Part shown: positions 21,045 to 31,714 of the stretch, in pieces | Layout of the letters: each line of letters begins with the position of its first letter | Position numbering within the stretch: position 1 is the first letter of the stretch | Origin: Gammaproteobacteria bacterium | Lineage (GTDB): Bacteria > Pseudomonadota > Gammaproteobacteria > SZUA-152 | Direction: 5' to 3' | Length of the DNA: 33,902 nt | Assembly: GCA_011051685.1 (NCBI GenBank) | Contig: DRKQ01000094.1 | Span: 1 to 33,902 of the forward strand | Notes under the pieces: generated by a model | What the model saw: only the letters and a program-made list of their open reading frames with translations | Told to the model about the DNA's origin: nothing | Databases searched by the model: none | Program-made: the position numbers and the translations under genes

Positions 21045-22301
21045 ATGAACCTGACCGAACTGAAACAGAAAACCGCCTCCGAACTCATTGAGCTTGCACA
21101 AAGCACCGGCGTGGAGGGCATGGCCCGCGCGCGCAAGCAGGACATCATCTTTGCGCTGCTCAAGGCGCATGCGAAAAACGGTGAAGACATCTACGGCGAC
21201 GGGGTGCTGGAGATTCTCCAGGACGGCTTCGGTTTTCTGCGCTCGGCGGACAGTTCCTACCTGGCCGGGCCGGATGATATCTACGTTTCTCCCAGCCAGA
21301 TTCGCCGTTTCAGTCTGCGCACCGGCGACACCATCTCCGGCAAGATTCGCCCGCCCAAGGATGGCGAACGTTATTTCGCCCTGCTCAAGGTGAGCGAGAT
21401 CAATTACGACCGGCCGGAGAATGCCAAGAACAAGGTGCCGTTCGAAAATCTTACTCCCCTGTTTCCCAATGACCGCCTGATCCTGGAAATGGGCAATGGC
21501 TCCACCGAGGATCTCACCGCGCGGGTCATCGACATGGCAGCGCCCATCGGCAAGGGGCAGCGTGGGCTCATTGTCTCGCCACCCAAGTCCGGCAAAACCA
21601 TGATGATGCAGAATATCGCCCAAAGCATCGCCGCCAATCATCCCGAGTGTTATCTCATCGTGCTGCTCATCGACGAGCGCCCGGAAGAGGTTACCGAGAT
21701 GCAGCGTTCGGTGCGAGGTGAGGTGGTTTCCAGTACCTTCGACGAACCCGCCAGCCGTCATGTACAGGTGGCGGAGATGGTCATCGAAAAGGCCAAGCGT
21801 CTTGTCGAGCATAAAAAGGATGTGGTGATCCTGCTGGACTCCATCACCCGTCTGGCGCGCGCCTACAATACGGTGATCCCGTCTTCGGGCAAGGTACTCA
21901 CAGGCGGTGTGGACGCCAATGCGCTGCACCGTCCCAAGCGCTTCTTTGGCGCGGCACGCAATATCGAGGAAGGTGGTAGCCTGACCATTCTTGCCACTGC
22001 CCTGGTGGATACCGGCTCGCGCATGGACGACGTGATCTACGAGGAATTCAAGGGTACCGGCAACATGGAGGTGCACCTGGATCGGCGCATCGCCGAGAAG
22101 CGTATCTATCCCGCCATCGACATCAACCGCTCCGGTACGCGCCGTGAAGAGCGCCTCACCAAGCCCGATGAACTGCAGAAGGTATGGATCCTGCGCAAGC
22201 TGCTGCATCCCATGGACGAGCTGGCGGCCATCGAATTCCTGTTAGACCGCCTCAAGGACACCAAGGTGAACGCGGAATTCTATGAGTCGATGAAGCGCTA
22301 A
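21045..22301 (+). CDS. rho: Transcription termination factor Rho
   Basis: 418 residues, close to the E. coli length. The N-terminal domain begins [10 protein letters not shown]; the cold-shock-like RNA-binding domain has GFGFLR at 61–66; the P-loop [10 protein letters not shown] lies at about 178–187, and [16 protein letters not shown] carries Walker B. All parts of the hexameric RNA-dependent ATPase are present. It releases RNA polymerase at untranslated C-rich transcripts. The long leader suggests autoregulation, as known for rho elsewhere. The ankyrin lipoprotein starts 34 nt downstream and may be on the same transcript. Confidence 0.99.
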
Positions 22302-22335: not shown

Positions 22336-23094
22336 ATGAATCCGCTGTACACAAAATACATCACACGGCTGGTTGTGTTGCTGGGCATTTTGCTGCTCAC
22401 CGGTTGTTCACGTGAATACACCACCGAGCTGATGAACGCGGCCAAAGACGGCAATCTGCAGGCGGTGCAGGCTGCGGCCCAGAGGGATGCCGATATCAAT
22501 CAGCGCAGCAACAAGGGGAAAAGCGCCCTGATGTTTGCTGCCTCCGAGAACCATGCCGATGTGGTGCAATGGTTGCTGGAGCAGGGCGCCGATGTGAACG
22601 CGACCGACAATTACGGCACCACGGCGCTGATCGTCGCTGCCACCGCAGGCCATGACGAGGTTGTAAAATTACTCCTGGAAAACGGCGCCGATGCGACGTT
22701 GCGCGATGATAGTGGTGGTGCCGCCCTGGTCAACGCGGTGTACTTCGGGCGTGTCAAAACAGTGCAATTGTTGCTGGATTATTTACTGGCCGACAAGGGG
22801 CCGGGCCTGGAAAAACGGGATGCTGAAGAATTGCTGATGCTGGCCTCGGGGCTTGGGCATACGGATATCGTCAGCTTAATGGTAAAGGCCGGGATCGATC
22901 CCAATGGCCGGGGCCTGAAACAGCGCACACCCTTGATGGCGGCAGCGGCCTTTGATCGTCCCGAAGTGGCCAAGGTGTTGTTGGCGCTGGGGGCGGATCC
23001 TGAGATTCGTGACGAGGATGGTCAGACAGCCCTGGATGTGGCGCGGGATCGTGGCAGTGACGATGTTCTGGCTCTGTTGAGTAATGGCCGCTAA
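22336..23094 (+). CDS. Ankyrin-repeat lipoprotein (first copy)
   Basis: 252 residues. The signal peptide ends in LLTGC, with Cys24 as the lipidated residue. From residue 32 to the end there are about six ankyrin repeats, with typical KSALMFAASENHADVVQWLL and GTTALIVAATAGHDEVVKLL units. Ankyrin repeats bind protein partners, here in the periplasm. It is 34 nt after rho and converges on the triheme cytochromes. A second ankyrin lipoprotein of similar design lies on the other side of those cytochromes, so both probably serve the same envelope process. The partner is unknown. Confidence 0.92.
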   Translation: MNPLYTKYITRLVVLLGILLLTGCSREYTTELMNAAKDGNLQAVQAAAQRDADINQRSNKGKSALMFAASENHADVVQWLLEQGADVNATDNYGTTALIVAATAGHDEVVKLLLENGADATLRDDSGGAALVNAVYFGRVKTVQLLLDYLLADKGPGLEKRDAEELLMLASGLGHTDIVSLMVKAGIDPNGRGLKQRTPLMAAAAFDRPEVAKVLLALGADPEIRDEDGQTALDVARDRGSDDVLALLSNGR

Positions 23095-23136
23095 CGCAAG
23101 TCTGCAAGCGAACAACGATTTACAGTTAATCTTGTA

Positions 23137-23877
23137 TCACCACCATTTCGGCCCGGAGCCCTCGTGCGGCACACTGTGACAACGCTCGCAGGTGAACAGG
23201 GCAAAGGCCACTTTGTCGTGGCATACCCCACAATACTCACCGCGTAGCACCTTGTTCATGGAAATAGGGTTGGCGCCTTCCTTGGCCTCGAAGATGGCCG
23301 GGTGACAATTGGAGCAGGCCAGCCACTTGGTGTGACGGTCGTGAGGAAATAGCACCCAGGGCATGAATTGGGTGTTCTTCATGAGAATATCCAGATCCAG
23401 CTCGGTCATTTTGCCTTTACCCAGCAGGTCGGCGCGGGGGTTGATCAAACCATCGGCCAGGGTCTGCACCCAATCCACCTGATGTCGCCGGTCACGGGGA
23501 AAATCCTTCATCGCCACAGCGGGATTCTGCAACACCACGATGGCGTCGTTGATGGTGTCATGAATACCGTCGTTGCGAGGTGATTCGCTGGCACCCATTT
23601 CCACGGCATTGAGTACCTTGCCGGTGGCCAAAACCACCTTGTCGTCGCTGTCAGCATTGTCCTTGTCCGGTGTTGTCTCGGGCGCTGGTGTTGCCGGGCT
23701 GGAGGTGGCTTCCTGTGCGGCAGATTTGACAAATTCGGTGACCTTGTCGGGGCTGGTGACTATGGGTAGTGGATCGGGCTCTGGGGCGGTTTGTGGAGTA
23801 TTACAGGCACTCAGCAGCCATCCACCGAGTGTCAGGCAAAGCAGGCGTGATGTGAACGGTGTTGGAGACATGTGCAT
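23137..23877 (-). CDS. Triheme c7-like cytochrome lipoprotein (A)
   Basis: 246 residues. The lipobox LLSAC gives Cys25, followed by a Pro/Asp-rich linker (26–75). Three CxxCH haem sites are at 188–192 (CSNCH), 216–220 (CGVCH) and 230–234 (CERCH), with additional His in FPHDRH and SVPH as likely sixth ligands. This is the pattern of the c7-type triheme domain family, in which domains can form electron-conducting chains. It should be a lipid-anchored periplasmic electron carrier. It is the second gene of a two-gene minus-strand pair, 15 bp after a paralogue. The third codon is also ATG and could be the start. Confidence 0.93.
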   Translation of the reverse strand: MHMSPTPFTSRLLCLTLGGWLLSACNTPQTAPEPDPLPIVTSPDKVTEFVKSAAQEATSSPATPAPETTPDKDNADSDDKVVLATGKVLNAVEMGASESPRNDGIHDTINDAIVVLQNPAVAMKDFPRDRRHQVDWVQTLADGLINPRADLLGKGKMTELDLDILMKNTQFMPWVLFPHDRHTKWLACSNCHPAIFEAKEGANPISMNKVLRGEYCGVCHDKVAFALFTCERCHSVPHEGSGPKWW

Positions 23878-23892
23878 GACTGCCGTCCTGCC

Positions 23893-24552
23893 CTATTTTC
23901 CGTCGGGTCGCACACCCATGAATTCCATCCAGCGCTTGGGGGTGCCTTCGTGGGGTACGCTGTGGCAACGTTCGCAGGTCCACAGGGCAAAGGCCACCTT
24001 GTCGTGGCAGCGGCCACAGTATTCACCGGCAAGAATGCCATCCATGCCGATATCGCTGTTGGCACCTTTTTTCATGATGAAGATATTAGGGTGGCAGTTG
24101 GAGCAGGCCAGCCATTTGGTGTGGGCGATGTGCGGAAACTTTACCCAGGGCATTTGCCCGGTGTCCTTGAACAGGATATCCATATCCAGTACCTGCATCT
24201 GACTTTCACCCTTGAGGTCGGCGCGGGGTTCGATGATGCCCAGATCCAGTGCCTTGACCCAGTCCACGCCACCACGGCGATCCAGGGGGAAGGCGCTGAG
24301 CGCCTCGGCGGGTTCCTGCAGCGCGTTAATGGCGTCATTGGCGGGGTCGTGGATGCCATCGGTGGCCAGGGTTTCTGTTTTTACTTCATCGGCAAAATAA
24401 CGATTGTCCCGCCAACGCTTGCCTTCACCTACGCCGCCCTCGACCACGTATTGGGCGCTGCGGGTGGCGGAGTTTGGGGTGGGGGTACAGGCGATGAGCA
24501 GTGACGCAGATATCGCGCACGCGGAAAACAGGATGACCAAACCACGCATCAT
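23893..24552 (-). CDS. Triheme c7-like cytochrome lipoprotein (B)
   Basis: 219 residues. The lipobox LLIAC gives Cys22. Haem sites are CSNCH (150–154), CGRCH (179–183) and CERCH (193–197). It shares with copy A the stretch TKWLACSNCHP and DKVAFAL before the third site, so the two genes are paralogues by duplication. It lacks copy A's acidic Pro-rich linker, and ends in an extra WMEFMGVRPDGK. The middle part (about 60–115) is also conserved between the copies (DGIHD, then NDAI and DRR–VDWV), so the family domain extends beyond the haem region. Read toward copy A from the ankyrin gene upstream. Confidence 0.93.
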   Translation of the reverse strand: MMRGLVILFSACAISASLLIACTPTPNSATRSAQYVVEGGVGEGKRWRDNRYFADEVKTETLATDGIHDPANDAINALQEPAEALSAFPLDRRGGVDWVKALDLGIIEPRADLKGESQMQVLDMDILFKDTGQMPWVKFPHIAHTKWLACSNCHPNIFIMKKGANSDIGMDGILAGEYCGRCHDKVAFALWTCERCHSVPHEGTPKRWMEFMGVRPDGK

Positions 24553-24595
24553 AGTGTTGCTACCCCCCCTCTCTCGCCGCCGGTGTGACGAGTTG

Positions 24596-25159
24596 TTATT
24601 GTTTTGCGCCGGCCTTTTTCAAAAGTTCTACGATCTCGTTGTACCCTTCATTGCGTGCGAGGTACATGGCCGTGCGTCCATCCCGGGCCTTTACGGTAAC
24701 GTCAGCGCCCCGTGCAAGCAACTGTTTGACGATCCCCACGTGACCCCGGTTGCTGGCCCAAAGCAAAGGGGTCCAGCCATTCTTGTCGCTCAATTCGAGA
24801 TTGGCCTTGCGTTGCAGCAGTAGTTGGACTGCCTCCTGGTTGCCCTTGGCGGCAGCGCGCATCAAGGGTGTCCAGCCATCGTCATCCTGGGCATTGATGT
24901 CAGCGCCGGCGTCGATGAGCACGGCCATGGTGGCGGTCTGGTTCTGGCGGGCGGCATGCATCAGCGCGGTCCAGCCGAAATTATTGCGTTCGTCCACTGC
25001 GGCGCCCTTGGCCAGTTCGGCCTGTACCGCTGCGGGATCCCCGTCCAGGGTGCGCTTCATCAATTCGGTGTTGCCGTCGCAGGCCATCAGCAAGCCGGCA
25101 AGCGCGGCCAACAGGATGTGACGCAGACGGATTGAATTGGGTATTGCGCGGTTGTTCAT
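24596..25159 (-). CDS. Ankyrin-repeat lipoprotein (second copy)
   Basis: 187 residues. The signal peptide ends in LLMAC with Cys27. About four to five ankyrin repeats follow, for example FGWTALMHAARQNQTATMAV and DDGWTPLMRAAAKGNQEAV. It is 43 bp upstream of triheme cytochrome B on the same strand, so the three minus-strand genes ankyrin, B and A form a likely operon. The order is the mirror of the plus-strand ankyrin gene beyond the cytochromes. A periplasmic chaperone or anchor for cytochromes is my inference from context only. Confidence 0.92.
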   Translation of the reverse strand: MNNRAIPNSIRLRHILLAALAGLLMACDGNTELMKRTLDGDPAAVQAELAKGAAVDERNNFGWTALMHAARQNQTATMAVLIDAGADINAQDDDGWTPLMRAAAKGNQEAVQLLLQRKANLELSDKNGWTPLLWASNRGHVGIVKQLLARGADVTVKARDGRTAMYLARNEGYNEIVELLKKAGAKQ

Positions 25160-25270
25160 GTCAATGGTGTGTACCTAGGCAAAGTCAAAAGTGTACCAAG
25201 CCCTCCGTTGCGGGCATAGGGCGGATAGGCATTCGCGGTTGGCTCGGTTATTATGGGGTTACGGAGTATC

Positions 25271-25627
25271 ATGTTTGTGAGTATGGTTATGGCCTCGAAC
25301 CCCTGTCCCCACTGTGCGCAAAAAACCTTCAGCTGGTGGGATAAATACCTGGCGGGTAAATGGGTGTTGTTGTATTGCAAGGAATGTCGGGGTCGGGTCA
25401 GCGCTCAACCCATCGTGCTGGCCGTACTGTACTTTCTGTACACCTGGGACGTGGTATTGTTTGGCTACCTCGCTTACCTGGATTCCCTGTGGTACCTGGC
25501 GGTGCTGGCCGGAGGGTGGTTGATCCTGGACTTTTTTTCCCTGTATGTACCACTGAGTCCGTTGCGTCCGGCGGGAGGAGGGACAGCGCCGGCGCAGAAG
25601 CCGGCCGACTCCTCCCAGGACAACTGA
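25271..25627 (+). CDS. Small zinc-ribbon membrane protein, unknown function
   Basis: 118 residues from ATG 25271, which has GGAG 4 nt upstream; ATG 25253 and 25289 are also in frame, and 25289 would give the neat start MASNPCPHC. A CPHC (12–15) and CKEC (36–39) pair form a probable zinc ribbon around a Trp-rich stretch (SWWDKYLAGKW). Two hydrophobic segments follow (about 45–70 and 75–95), then a short Pro/Ala-rich tail. I recognise no named family. It lies 9 nt before the ketohexokinase-like gene and is probably co-transcribed with it. Confidence 0.65.
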   Translation: MFVSMVMASNPCPHCAQKTFSWWDKYLAGKWVLLYCKECRGRVSAQPIVLAVLYFLYTWDVVLFGYLAYLDSLWYLAVLAGGWLILDFFSLYVPLSPLRPAGGGTAPAQKPADSSQDN

Positions 25628-28389: not shown

Positions 28390-28656
28390 GTTTTTCCTTA
28401 CAGTCTTGATGGGTTCACGCCGTCAAGCCTGTCGGGGGTTGACCTGCGCCATCCCTGGCGCAGGCCCTGCGGGCGCACTTCGTGCGTCCCGTTTTGCTCC
28501 GGGCAAAACGGTCAACTCCTCTCACCGGCACCAGTTTTTCCTTACAGTCTTGATGGGTTCACGCCGTCAAGCCTGTCGGGGGTTGACCTGCGCCATCCCT
28601 GGCGCAGGCCCTGCGGGCGCACTGGCGTGCGTCCCGTTTTGCTCCCGGCAAAACGG
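28368..28656 (+). repeat. Tandem 144/145-bp repeat that begins with the 3' end of tRNA-Thr
   Basis: Unit 1 is 28368–28511 (starting inside the T loop of the tRNA), unit 2 is 28512–28656. They differ only by TTC versus TGGC near 28479/28623 and one G/C change in the last hairpin. Each unit holds 22 nt of tRNA-Thr end with CCA, then four potential hairpins: 28405–28427, 28443–28464 (9-bp stem), 28471–28490 and 28489–28511 (9-bp stem, alternative to the end of the previous one). Both differences fall in loops. The arrangement resembles the rtT repeats after E. coli tyrT. The repeat is probably in the tRNA primary transcript. Confidence 0.93.
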
Positions 28657-28660
28657 TGGT

Positions 28661-28728
28661 CTGCGCCATTTCTGGTGCGAACCCTTCGGGCGCACTTCGT
28701 GCGTCCCGTTTTGCTCCGGGCAAAACAG
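28661..28728 (+). repeat. Third, partial copy of the tRNA-Thr repeat
   Basis: This matches the second half of the unit: a diverged CTGCGCCA stem (G-U pairs keep most pairing), then the GGGCGCAC–GTGCGTCCC hairpin and the GTTTTGC–GCAAAAC hairpin, both identical to unit 1. It lacks the tRNA-derived part. A trace of the next unit (TTGCGCCATCC) follows at 28733–28743. From there to 28840 no gene or clear terminator is visible. Confidence 0.85.
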
Positions 28729-28840
28729 TGATTTGCGCCATCCATGACGTAGGCTTTTCTTGCGCGCGGTGTGTGTCATTTTGCCAAGTGGCATTGCCGG
28801 CGGGTTGTTCCCCGCGCAGCTGACCGTCTCTCTGCGCTGT

Positions 28841-31714
28841 TTATGGCGTGCTGTAAACGACGCTTAAGGCGAAAGCTTTACCGGAGGCTGGGTCAAGCAG
28901 GTCAAAATGGGCTTTGATGCCTTTATCGGTGATATCGGCTGGGAGGATGGCAATAATGCCCATTTTTAATCCGCCACTGAGCACATTGCCATTTAAATTC
29001 GCGGGGTCAGTGGTGCTGAACAGGATGTCGCTGCCATTGAGCAGTTCATACTGTGTCAACGGGAAATCCCGGTTGGACAGGTTAAATAGGAAGAGACCGA
29101 ATCGGCTGCCGCTGAGCACGGTTGTACCCGAGGTCTTGGCATCAGCAAAGGCACCACCGGCAATCACGTCGTAGATCGTGGCTGAACTATACAGGAACGT
29201 GCTGTTGTGAATGGTGCCGGCATCAACACTGGCGCTGATTTGTAACAGGCCGTTCTGTGTGGTTGTGAATGAGGTGTTGGCGATCCCACCCGAGGTGACC
29301 AGGTTTTGGCTGCTGATCAATGTGCCATTCTGACGGATCTCCAGATTGATCACGGTTCCATCGGCGACGGTGGCATTTGGGTCGGCGGCCCGTACCCGAA
29401 CCTCCAGGGTGCTGCTGTCGGCGCCATCGTTGAGCAGTACATTGGGGTTGGCGAGCACCACTAGGGAAACCGGCCGCTGGGGTGTGTTGTTAATCGTCAG
29501 GTCAAGCGTGGCCGACAGGCCTGCATAGTTGGCAGTAATGCTGACGTTGCCAGTGACGCCAATTCCCGCGGTAACCAACCCCCTTTGCGTCGGTTGGTTG
29601 TCGACGAAGGCCAGGGTCGGGGTGACCGACCGCCAAGCCGCCTGCTGGGTAAGATCCTGGCTGCTGCCATCGGAAAAGGTGCCGGTCAGCGTAAGCTGCT
29701 GTTGCTCGGCACTGTCAAGAATGGTTTTGCTGCTGCTGATGCTCAGGCTTACGAGGCTGGCGGTGGCGATGTTGATAGGTGTGCTGTCCTGCATCCCATC
29801 GAGCAAGGCGGTGACCGTGGTGGCGCCGCTGGCCAGGGCAACCAAGAGGCCTTGCTGTCCATCGCCGTTTAAGGCCCGCAGCAGGGCCTCGTCAGCGCTG
29901 CTCCATGTCACCTGGGTGGTGACGTCCTTCTGGCTGCCATCGGAATAAGTGGCGATAGCCCTGAGTTGCAACTGGGTGCCCACCACCAGGCTGGGTGTGT
30001 CAGGGGTAATTTGCAGACTGCTTAGGGTGGCGTTGCTGACGCTGACCGTGGCATTGCCGGAGATGCTGCCCAGGCTGGCGCTGATACGGGCCACGCCTGG
30101 AGTGAGAGCGTTCACAGAGCCCCCGTTGACGGTGGCAATAGAGAGATTATCGGACTCCCAAAGGACCTGCTCGTCCAGCATTTGCACGGACCCATCGGAA
30201 AAGCTTCCTTCCGCGTGCACATCCTGATTGGCGCCGGGGAAAAGATTCAGTTCTCCGGGCTGCACATTGATGGATAACAGTTGGGCGCTGCTGACCGTCA
30301 GAGAGGCTGAGGCACTGATGCCATATAAGGTGGCCGTCACGCTGGTGGCGCCAACGCCCAGGGCGTTGGCCAGGCCATGTTCGTCGGTGGCATTGCTGAT
30401 GGCGGCTAAGCCCGGGTTGGCGGTGGACCAGCTGACCAGCGTGCTGATGTCTCGTACCGTGCCATCTGAATAATAGCCGTTTGCCAGGAACGTGGTCTGT
30501 GTTCCCAGGGCAAGGCGTGCATCGGGTGGGCTGATGTCGATGCTGGTCAGGGTGGCGGGGCTGACAATGAGTTCGAGACTGCCGGAAACAGCCCCCAGGG
30601 TGGCCGTGGCGGTGGCACTGCCCACCGCCAGCGCCGTGGCCAGACCCCGCTTGCCGCTGGCGTTGTCGATGGCCAGTGTCGAGGGAGGGCTGCTTTGCCA
30701 GGTTACCTGCTCACTGATGTCCTGCAGGGTACCATCGCTGTAATGGCCCAGGGCACGCAGTGCCTGTTGCTGGCCCAGGGGAAGGCTGTCGTTAGCGGCG
30801 GAGATTTCGATGCTGTTTAATATGGCGCTACTGACGGTGATGGTGAGCGTGCGGCTGATTCCAGCAAGACTGGCGCTGACGTTGGTACTGCCGATACCTT
30901 GTGGTTGCACGAGACCCTTGGCATCAATGTCAACAATGCCGGTGTCGGCACTGTTCCAGTTGACTTGATCGCTGAGATCCTGGCTGCTGCCATCGCTGTA
31001 CAGGCCCAGGGCAGTCAGACTGAGTTGAGTACCCAGCGGCAGGTTGGGGGCCTCCGGGTTGAGTGTGATCTGGGTCAGTTCGGCGGCAGTAATGGTGACG
31101 CCGATTTGCGTGGATATACCGCCCATGCTGGCAGTGAGTTGGGTATTGCCCACGGAAAGGCCGGTCACCCTGGCGGAAGCGGACAGGCTGGCAATGGCGG
31201 TATCGGCAAGAGTCCAGCTTGCCTGATCCGTCAAGTCTTGTGTGCTGCCATCGCTGTATTGACCAATCAGGGTCAATTTACCGCTGGTGCCGTTGGCCAG
31301 CTGCAGACTCGGGGGGCTGATTTCCAGGCTGGAAAGGCTGGCACTGGTGACGGTGAGAGTGGTGCTGCCGCTGATGGCGCCAAGGGTGGCCAGTATCGTC
31401 ACCTGGCCCGCGGCCAGGGCATTTACCTCACCGCTGGCGGATATCGTGGCAATGGTGTTGTCGCTGGATTGCCAGGTAACGGACGTTGAGAGCGTGCTGG
31501 TACTGTTGTCGCTGTTAATGCCGGTGGCGACCAGAGTAAGCGTGGTGCCTGCGGCCAGGGAAGGTTGGCTTGGAGTGACTTCAATGCGCGAAAGGCTGGT
31601 GCCGGCTGTGCCATCGTTACCTCCACCACCTCCTCCGCAGGCGAGGAGAAGAAGGCAGCACAAAAATACCGGAAAATACCGCAGGGAAGTCAGGCTACCA
31701 ACTATTCGTGACAT
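28841..31714 (-). CDS. Lipoprotein with eight Ig-like (BID_2) repeats
   Basis: 957 residues. The lipobox LLLLAC gives Cys26, followed by a Gly run. From about residue 40 to 730 there are eight repeats of roughly 85–90 residues, each starting like LSSLEISPPSLQLANGTSGK and containing YSDGS–DLT–V-W-S, the bacterial Ig-like group 2 pattern. A further Ig-like domain (starting RPVSLVVLANPNV, closer to the invasin/BID_1 type) and a C-terminal domain of about 110 residues follow. It is probably a surface-exposed adhesin or matrix protein. Repeat sequences are well diverged, so the array is old. Start ATG 31714 has no strong ribosome site. Confidence 0.9.
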   Translation of the reverse strand: MSRIVGSLTSLRYFPVFLCCLLLLACGGGGGGNDGTAGTSLSRIEVTPSQPSLAAGTTLTLVATGINSDNSTSTLSTSVTWQSSDNTIATISASGEVNALAAGQVTILATLGAISGSTTLTVTSASLSSLEISPPSLQLANGTSGKLTLIGQYSDGSTQDLTDQASWTLADTAIASLSASARVTGLSVGNTQLTASMGGISTQIGVTITAAELTQITLNPEAPNLPLGTQLSLTALGLYSDGSSQDLSDQVNWNSADTGIVDIDAKGLVQPQGIGSTNVSASLAGISRTLTITVSSAILNSIEISAANDSLPLGQQQALRALGHYSDGTLQDISEQVTWQSSPPSTLAIDNASGKRGLATALAVGSATATATLGAVSGSLELIVSPATLTSIDISPPDARLALGTQTTFLANGYYSDGTVRDISTLVSWSTANPGLAAISNATDEHGLANALGVGATSVTATLYGISASASLTVSSAQLLSINVQPGELNLFPGANQDVHAEGSFSDGSVQMLDEQVLWESDNLSIATVNGGSVNALTPGVARISASLGSISGNATVSVSNATLSSLQITPDTPSLVVGTQLQLRAIATYSDGSQKDVTTQVTWSSADEALLRALNGDGQQGLLVALASGATTVTALLDGMQDSTPINIATASLVSLSISSSKTILDSAEQQQLTLTGTFSDGSSQDLTQQAAWRSVTPTLAFVDNQPTQRGLVTAGIGVTGNVSITANYAGLSATLDLTINNTPQRPVSLVVLANPNVLLNDGADSSTLEVRVRAADPNATVADGTVINLEIRQNGTLISSQNLVTSGGIANTSFTTTQNGLLQISASVDAGTIHNSTFLYSSATIYDVIAGGAFADAKTSGTTVLSGSRFGLFLFNLSNRDFPLTQYELLNGSDILFSTTDPANLNGNVLSGGLKMGIIAILPADITDKGIKAHFDLLDPASGKAFALSVVYSTP

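Follow-up and report, generated by a model that had tools for sequence, protein, structure and literature searches.

Introduction

The closest described counterparts of the locus studied here are triheme c7-type cytochromes (families TIGR04257 and PF14522; the solved relatives are PpcA and the c7 polymers 3ov0, 3oue and 1rwj) and ankyrin proteins that act together with haem proteins. "Candidatus Tenderia electrophaga" encodes, at Tel_16515-16545, the triheme proteins Tel_16515, Tel_16520 and Tel_16530, the tetratricopeptide protein Tel_16525 and the undecaheme protein Tel_16545; its triheme genes are reported to rank with those that it expresses most strongly on a cathode, and the authors suggested that the repeat protein aligns the cytochromes in a bridge (PMC5371394). 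In Pseudomonas aeruginosa, KatB activity is reduced when the periplasmic ankyrin protein AnkB is missing (PMC2830190), and the ankyrin protein Cj1386 of Campylobacter jejuni binds haem and serves KatA, according to a review (PMC11442138). Here, we analyzed a stretch of 33,902 bases (the window), which is the entire contig C94 of a 3.36-Mb, 308-contig gammaproteobacterial assembly (GCA_011051685.1, order SZUA-152). In it, genes for two ankyrin lipoproteins, ank1 and ank2, enclose those for two triheme cytochrome lipoproteins, cytA and cytB.

Neither a pairing of ankyrins with triheme cytochromes nor ankyrins associated with the multi-heme cytochromes of iron-oxidizing bacteria were found in the searches made of an open-access library. 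Ankyrin repeats and multiheme cytochromes occur together in work on Borg elements, which are unrelated, and a Geobacter ankyrin gene is listed in a table in the literature on extracellular electron transfer (EET) and c-type cytochromes. An earlier reading of the window, made from its letters without database searches (the sequence-only reading), had likewise known of no system of this make-up. The combination is apparently undescribed and is built from known families. In this study, we establish the families of the four products, the paralogy of the cytochromes, the linkage and joint loss of the genes and the lipoboxes of the proteins, and we propose, with a probability of roughly 45%, that the cluster is an accessory periplasmic electron-transfer module in which the ankyrin proteins would be non-redox docking or assembly partners.

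Results

Two ankyrin genes enclose two cytochrome genes

The cluster and its two context genes are located as follows.

22336..23094, + strand: ank1, 252-residue ankyrin-repeat lipoprotein, lipobox LLTG-C, Ser at +2, predicted at the outer membrane
23137..23877, - strand: cytA, 246-residue triheme c7-type cytochrome lipoprotein with three CxxCH, lipobox LLSA-C, optional member of the cluster
23893..24552, - strand: cytB, 219-residue triheme c7-type cytochrome lipoprotein with three CxxCH, lipobox LIA-C, constant member of the cluster
24596..25159, - strand: ank2, 187-residue ankyrin lipoprotein, lipobox LLMA-C, Asp at +2, predicted at the inner membrane
25253..25627, + strand: znr, a small protein that is rich in Cys and resembles a zinc ribbon, transcribed away from ank2; context gene
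21045..22301, + strand: rho, a housekeeping gene that immediately precedes ank1; context gene

The open reading frames (ORFs) bear out the order and strands given by the sequence-only reading, namely ankyrin (+), cytochrome (-), cytochrome (-), ankyrin (-), and a lipobox at the signal peptide of each of the four proteins agrees with its view that all are lipoproteins. By ORF coordinates, ank2, cytB and cytA share a strand and are separated by 43 and 15 bases, which is operon-like spacing. The start of ank1 is 34 bases behind rho, and ank1 is convergent with cytA, with 42 bases between their ends. Predicted promoters and terminators were not in excess over shuffled sequences.

The ankyrin genes are kept or lost together

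The neighbourhoods were read in all 24 sampled genomes of the order, which represent one family and six genera. The cytB gene was present in every genome (24/24) and cytA in 15; the nine genomes lacking cytA are all members of genus g1, and each has retained both ankyrin genes. Both ankyrin genes were found in 21 genomes and neither in three (G001, G003 and G006), and never was just one present. Counted as present are G018, where a contig end cuts ank1, and G005, where ank1 lies on a separate contig directly behind rho. The three genomes without ankyrin genes form one clade in the CytB tree (support 100/90), and a decayed 5' remnant of ank2 persists in G003, indicating that the loss is real; fragments of znr remain in all three. 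Thus, the ankyrins follow an all-or-none pattern, CytB is a constant member and CytA an optional one. Co-occurrence of the four genes across genomes, which had been put forward as a check on the sequence-only reading, was found for cytB and both ankyrins in 21 of 24 genomes, with cytA restricted to 15 and the ankyrins lost in three.

The surrounding gene order is fixed: rhlB - trxA - rho - ank1> <cytA <cytB <ank2 - znr - pfkB - thiO - fur. The exceptions are lost genes, contig ends and some g1 genomes in which the znr-to-fur side was unmatched. As this layout recurs in 21 of the 24 genomes and in other families, it is not due to chance.

CytA and CytB are paralogous c7-type cytochromes with lipoboxes

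Both cytochromes passed TIGR04257, with 64.5 and 57.5 bits (cut-off 40), and PF14522, with 46.0 and 41.4 bits (cut-off 24.8). Each contains exactly three CxxCH motifs, spread over about 60-70 residues, and their nearest solved relatives in a sequence-profile search are c7-type multidomain cytochromes (3ov0, E 7e-42). Unlike the c7 triheme family, both proteins add an N-terminal block, a lipid anchor and ankyrin neighbours. The conserved block, DGIHD...DWV...PR, comprises about 70 residues preceding the triheme domain. As the sequence-only reading had observed, it is common to CytA and CytB together with TKWLACSNCHP, and the two are true paralogues with 63% identity across CytB residues 59-211. 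Candidate distal His residues were identified in the alignment: H68 and H144 are present in 40 of 40 rows and H141 in at least 90%. We infer that the three haems would be bis-His ligated, by the His residues of DGIHD, FPH and HTxW together with those of the three CxxCH motifs.

Homologues of these cytochromes also occur in complete or partial operons (class II) and as solitary soluble triheme proteins (class III). With a permissive pattern, a lipobox was found in 30 of 30 cluster homologues of CytB and in 13 of 15 readable CytA sequences (17 rows), in none of the 21 readable class III sequences (22 rows) and in 4 of 39 class II sequences, probably by chance. Lipid anchoring therefore marks the ankyrin-linked lineage. 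CytA formed one clade in both trees that were built; CytB formed one clade in the first tree, but was spread at the base of the wider one, from which a motif filter had removed at least eight rows. Class II and class III cytochromes were separate relatives. CytA, where present, is a tandem duplicate of CytB. The genome G009, which has the full cluster, carries a second, unlinked cytB without ankyrin neighbours (L105:5585-6214, contig C162).

The class II operon (L030 and others) encodes a beta-barrel-like protein of about 600 residues, two triheme cytochromes, a 524-residue protein, a third triheme cytochrome, two beta-propeller-like lipoproteins (the one tested matched Pfam NHL) and a protein with 11 haems that weakly resembles MtrC/MtrF. 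Pfam detected no tetratricopeptide repeat in the 524-residue protein of L030. By gene order and haem counts alone, this operon matches the Tenderia genes Tel_16515-16545. In the genome of the window it is split across contigs C7 and C75, and the triheme copy on C75 has 54% identity over residues 61-204. CytA and CytB are homologous to the third triheme cytochrome of these operons, and here as in Tenderia a repeat protein is encoded with the cytochromes; however, the operon cytochromes are soluble and without ankyrin neighbours, whereas the window pair is lipid-anchored and is not encoded near a porin or an undecaheme protein. The genes for these two, like those for the repeat protein and the beta-propeller proteins, are missing from the window locus and are found on C7 and C75. 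By their sequences, CytA and CytB belong, as predicted lipid-anchored proteins, to a triheme c7-type family that has soluble relatives in a porin/triheme/undecaheme operon.

Ank1 and Ank2 differ at the residue after the lipid Cys

Both Ank1 and Ank2 consist of ankyrin repeats throughout, and they matched Ank_2 (PF12796) with 241.6 and 111.6 bits (cut-off 27.3). Their identity is about 38%, which is not above that of any two ankyrin proteins; given this value and their differing phyletic ranges, the term pair does not mean duplication. The sequence-only reading had described both gene types as pairs, which holds as paralogy for the cytochromes and implies no duplication for the ankyrins.

Among the four cluster proteins, only Ank2 has Asp at position +2, a difference that is hidden by the earlier description of all four as membrane-attached. 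Asp follows the lipid Cys in all 43 Ank2 proteins that have this Cys (21 from the order, 5 from other cluster-bearing genomes and 17 unlinked), and belongs to a generally conserved start, CDxNT. In Ank1, the corresponding residue is Ser, Thr or Gly, and never Asp (23 readable rows). In Escherichia coli, lipoproteins with Asp at +2 are retained in the inner membrane, a rule that we extend provisionally to this organism. Because Asp at +2 is confined to Ank2, the ankyrins may occupy opposite membranes, the inner one for Ank2 and the outer one for Ank1. In family f22, the Ank2 homologues (L234, L235 and L237) have Gly in place of the lipid Cys and retain the following Asp, so that either another anchor, an uncleaved N-terminal helix, would be needed or the protein would be soluble.

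We compared conservation along the repeat as the mean fraction of the top residue. Positions 2, 3, 5, 13 and 14, which face the target in designed ankyrins, were more conserved than the convex side both in Ank1 (0.72 versus 0.54; 17 rows) and in Ank2 (0.70 versus 0.50; 25 rows). Three consecutive repeats of Ank2 have Trp at position 5, where Trp is not rare among bacterial ankyrins.

These proteins might, by analogy with AnkB-KatB and Cj1386-KatA, be maturation or protection helpers that deliver haem to the cytochromes or shield them. In both described cases an ankyrin protein accompanies a haem protein, and AnkB is periplasmic; however, the partner here is a multihaem electron carrier, there are two ankyrin lipoproteins instead of one ankyrin protein, and the likeness is drawn from published descriptions of the proteins. 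If Ank2 is located at the inner membrane, it would lie close to the apparatus that matures c-type cytochromes, and a different, diheme c-type protein is encoded close to ank2 in L228, L231, L233 and L236 (families f71 and f23). The Ank1 and Ank2 alignments contain no unusual conserved haem ligand, since the conserved His residues are mostly at consensus ankyrin places and the lipid Cys is the sole conserved Cys, and both cytochromes persist without ankyrins in three genomes. We regard such a haem-related role as possible, although unlikely.

The cluster recurs outside the order

CytB matched at E<=1e-45 in 40 of 369 genomes of the class, and the cytochrome neighbourhoods were read in 34 of them (4 from the order and 30 others), all but G099, G176, G191, G192, G225 and G327. 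Ankyrin genes adjoin the cytochrome in nine of the 34 neighbourhoods, four of which are in the order genomes. Outside the order, the full cluster is present with the same neighbours in G338 and G123 (family f101), and without cytA, again with the same neighbours, in G056 (family f34). In G075 and G317 (family f53), ank2-cytB is followed by one or two other genes and ank1, away from rho and thiO. A match to ank1 at E<=1e-33 was obtained in 10 of 369 genomes: the nine with the cluster and a tenth, G213, in which the locus ends at a contig edge.

The ank2 gene matched at E<=1e-30 in 29 of the 369 genomes, and 26 of these 29, in 11 of 12 families, have a cytochrome match, versus 40 of 369 overall (Fisher p about 1e-26). 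We treat this phyletic co-occurrence as no more than suggestive, because nearly all of its variation is between families and common descent could account for it. Close to ank2 homologues, two genes (L228:6350-7348 and L231:6561-7631) encode secreted proteins with an N-terminal diheme CxxCH stretch and a sulfatase-modifying-factor-like domain (PF03781).

Sel1-repeat proteins were considered as a rule beside solitary soluble cytochromes and rejected, being absent elsewhere among the 14 of 24 loci scanned. In family f128 (L164, L171 and L176), a secreted Sel1-repeat protein is encoded at most 152 bases from a solitary soluble CytB relative; in family f81, one is found about 2 kb from a solitary soluble cytochrome.

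Other ankyrin genes lie near c7 cytochromes

The positions of Ank_2 and PF14522 loci were compared in five genomes (G000, G010, G015, G019 and G023). Apart from the focal cluster, 8 of 31 ankyrin loci were within 10 kb of a c7 cytochrome, versus 1.39 expected (G000, 3/6; G015, 0/5; G023, 2/4; G019, 0/5; G010, 3/11); one G019 match below the family cut-off was excluded. As counts and covered fractions were made by hand and orthologous loci recur, the p-value of 5e-5 should be taken as a rough indication only. Among the eight, several encode large secreted Sel1-ankyrin proteins close to cytochromes with 21 or more haems, and the same protein in G019 has no cytochrome within the 12 kb read. Three contigs of the genome that includes the window (C169, C243 and C70; L064, L065 and L063) carry clusters of multihaem cytochromes with 21 and more haems, including an ORF with 55 CxxCH in 1358 residues. 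Each has a large secreted ankyrin protein within about 6.5 kb, a Sel1-ankyrin protein in C169.

Context of the locus

The name rho is presumptive and follows from the sequence and the conserved trxA-rho order. The znr product of the window has no Pfam match; for a relative in L222, the similarity to a zinc ribbon was weak and scored under the cut-off, and znr adjoins ank2 also at loci without a linked cytochrome. Elsewhere in the window, a 72-base GC-rich tandem repeat of 2.2 copies is located downstream of a fur-like gene, with no convincing gene at that place (28584-28743), and the minus strand at 28841-31714 encodes a 957-residue lipoprotein made of bacterial immunoglobulin-like (Big_2) domains.

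Discussion

We favour the view that this cluster is an accessory electron-transfer module of the periplasm. CytB and CytA would be anchored on the periplasmic side of the outer membrane, where they could relay electrons between a periplasmic pool and an outer-membrane conduit. The ankyrins, Ank2 probably from the inner membrane and Ank1 from the outer one, might position the cytochromes or assist their folding. The ankyrins would improve the module without being essential to it, by analogy with the repeat protein proposed to align the triheme cytochromes of Tenderia.

The sequence-only reading had suggested a membrane-attached electron-transfer complex with the ankyrin proteins as scaffold, chaperone or protection factor. 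What holds of that proposal is that the four lipoprotein genes are linked and conserved and that the cytochromes are relatives of those of an EET operon. A single stoichiometric assembly of the four proteins is unlikely in view of the absence of cytA from 9/24 genomes, the loss of the ankyrins in three and the occurrence of ank2 without linked cytochromes. As a general statement we rejected it: cytA is missing in 9/24 and the ankyrins in 3/24, and cytB stays.

Several observations weigh against an accessory module with ankyrin partners. G001, G003 and G006 keep both cytochromes, so the ankyrins are dispensable there. In 25 of the 34 neighbourhoods read, the cytochrome has no ankyrin neighbour and is a class III protein, part of a class II operon or in other multihaem surroundings; such homologues had been named in advance as evidence against the sequence-only reading, and we reject the idea that these cytochromes generally have ankyrin neighbours. 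We also examined 20 ank2 loci unlinked to a cytochrome (17 with a cytochrome match elsewhere in the genome and three in family f144). They mostly lie beside znr-pfkB, followed by a pentapeptide gene, with sulfatase-modifying-factor-like proteins on the other flank, and the three f144 genomes have no cytochrome match. Thus, ank2 is an older gene with its own neighbourhood, where the cytochrome lies elsewhere. The synteny across the order may partly reflect vertical inheritance of a slowly changing housekeeping block. At the protein level, the AlphaFold model of CytB is poor (mean predicted local distance difference test score, pLDDT, 61), and all four proteins are acidic (median isoelectric points 5.1-5.8), which leaves no charge complementarity between them.

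A rival explanation is that there is no functional link: the cytochromes would have landed beside ank2, an old resident of the znr-pfkB neighbourhood, ank1 would have settled behind rho, and the block would then have been inherited. The presence of ank2 by znr-pfkB without linked cytochromes in many families, the synteny of the arrangement with housekeeping genes and the survival of the cytochromes after ankyrin loss are all in line with such a history. However, family f53 keeps ank2, cytB and ank1 together outside the housekeeping block, and ank1 and ank2 were lost together even though they flank the cytochromes, which requires separate deletions; both facts weaken this explanation. Moreover, ank1 occurs in no genome shown to lack the cluster, and ank2-cytB-cytA has operon-like spacing. 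We therefore consider a purely historical association unlikely.

In a bolder form of the module that we favour, Ank2 and Ank1 would make up a periplasm-spanning bracket that holds the lipid-anchored triheme cytochromes between the membranes, and ankyrin or ankyrin-Sel1 proteins near multihaem cytochromes would be a recurrent device; we rate this extension as rather doubtful. The two ankyrins predicted at opposite membranes, and the separation of cytA and cytB from the main conduit operon, could also fit a redox or stress sensor in which the triheme cytochromes report the redox state of the periplasm and the two ankyrins pass this on to inner-membrane partners. None of the four proteins showed a signalling domain in the family searches, and no regulator gene was constantly adjacent in the neighbourhoods read, making a sensor highly improbable.

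Diffusing soluble cytochromes are for the most part invoked to explain how electrons traverse the periplasm between the respiratory chain and the conduits of the outer membrane. Lipid-anchored triheme cytochromes with ankyrins seemingly at opposite membranes are a concrete candidate for an organised crossing, and the bracket, if true, would be a dedicated scaffold for this poorly understood periplasmic step of EET. The cluster also enlarges the thin record of periplasmic ankyrin proteins serving haem proteins. Should docking fail as an explanation, the ankyrin-less clade remains a natural loss experiment on the role of such helpers.

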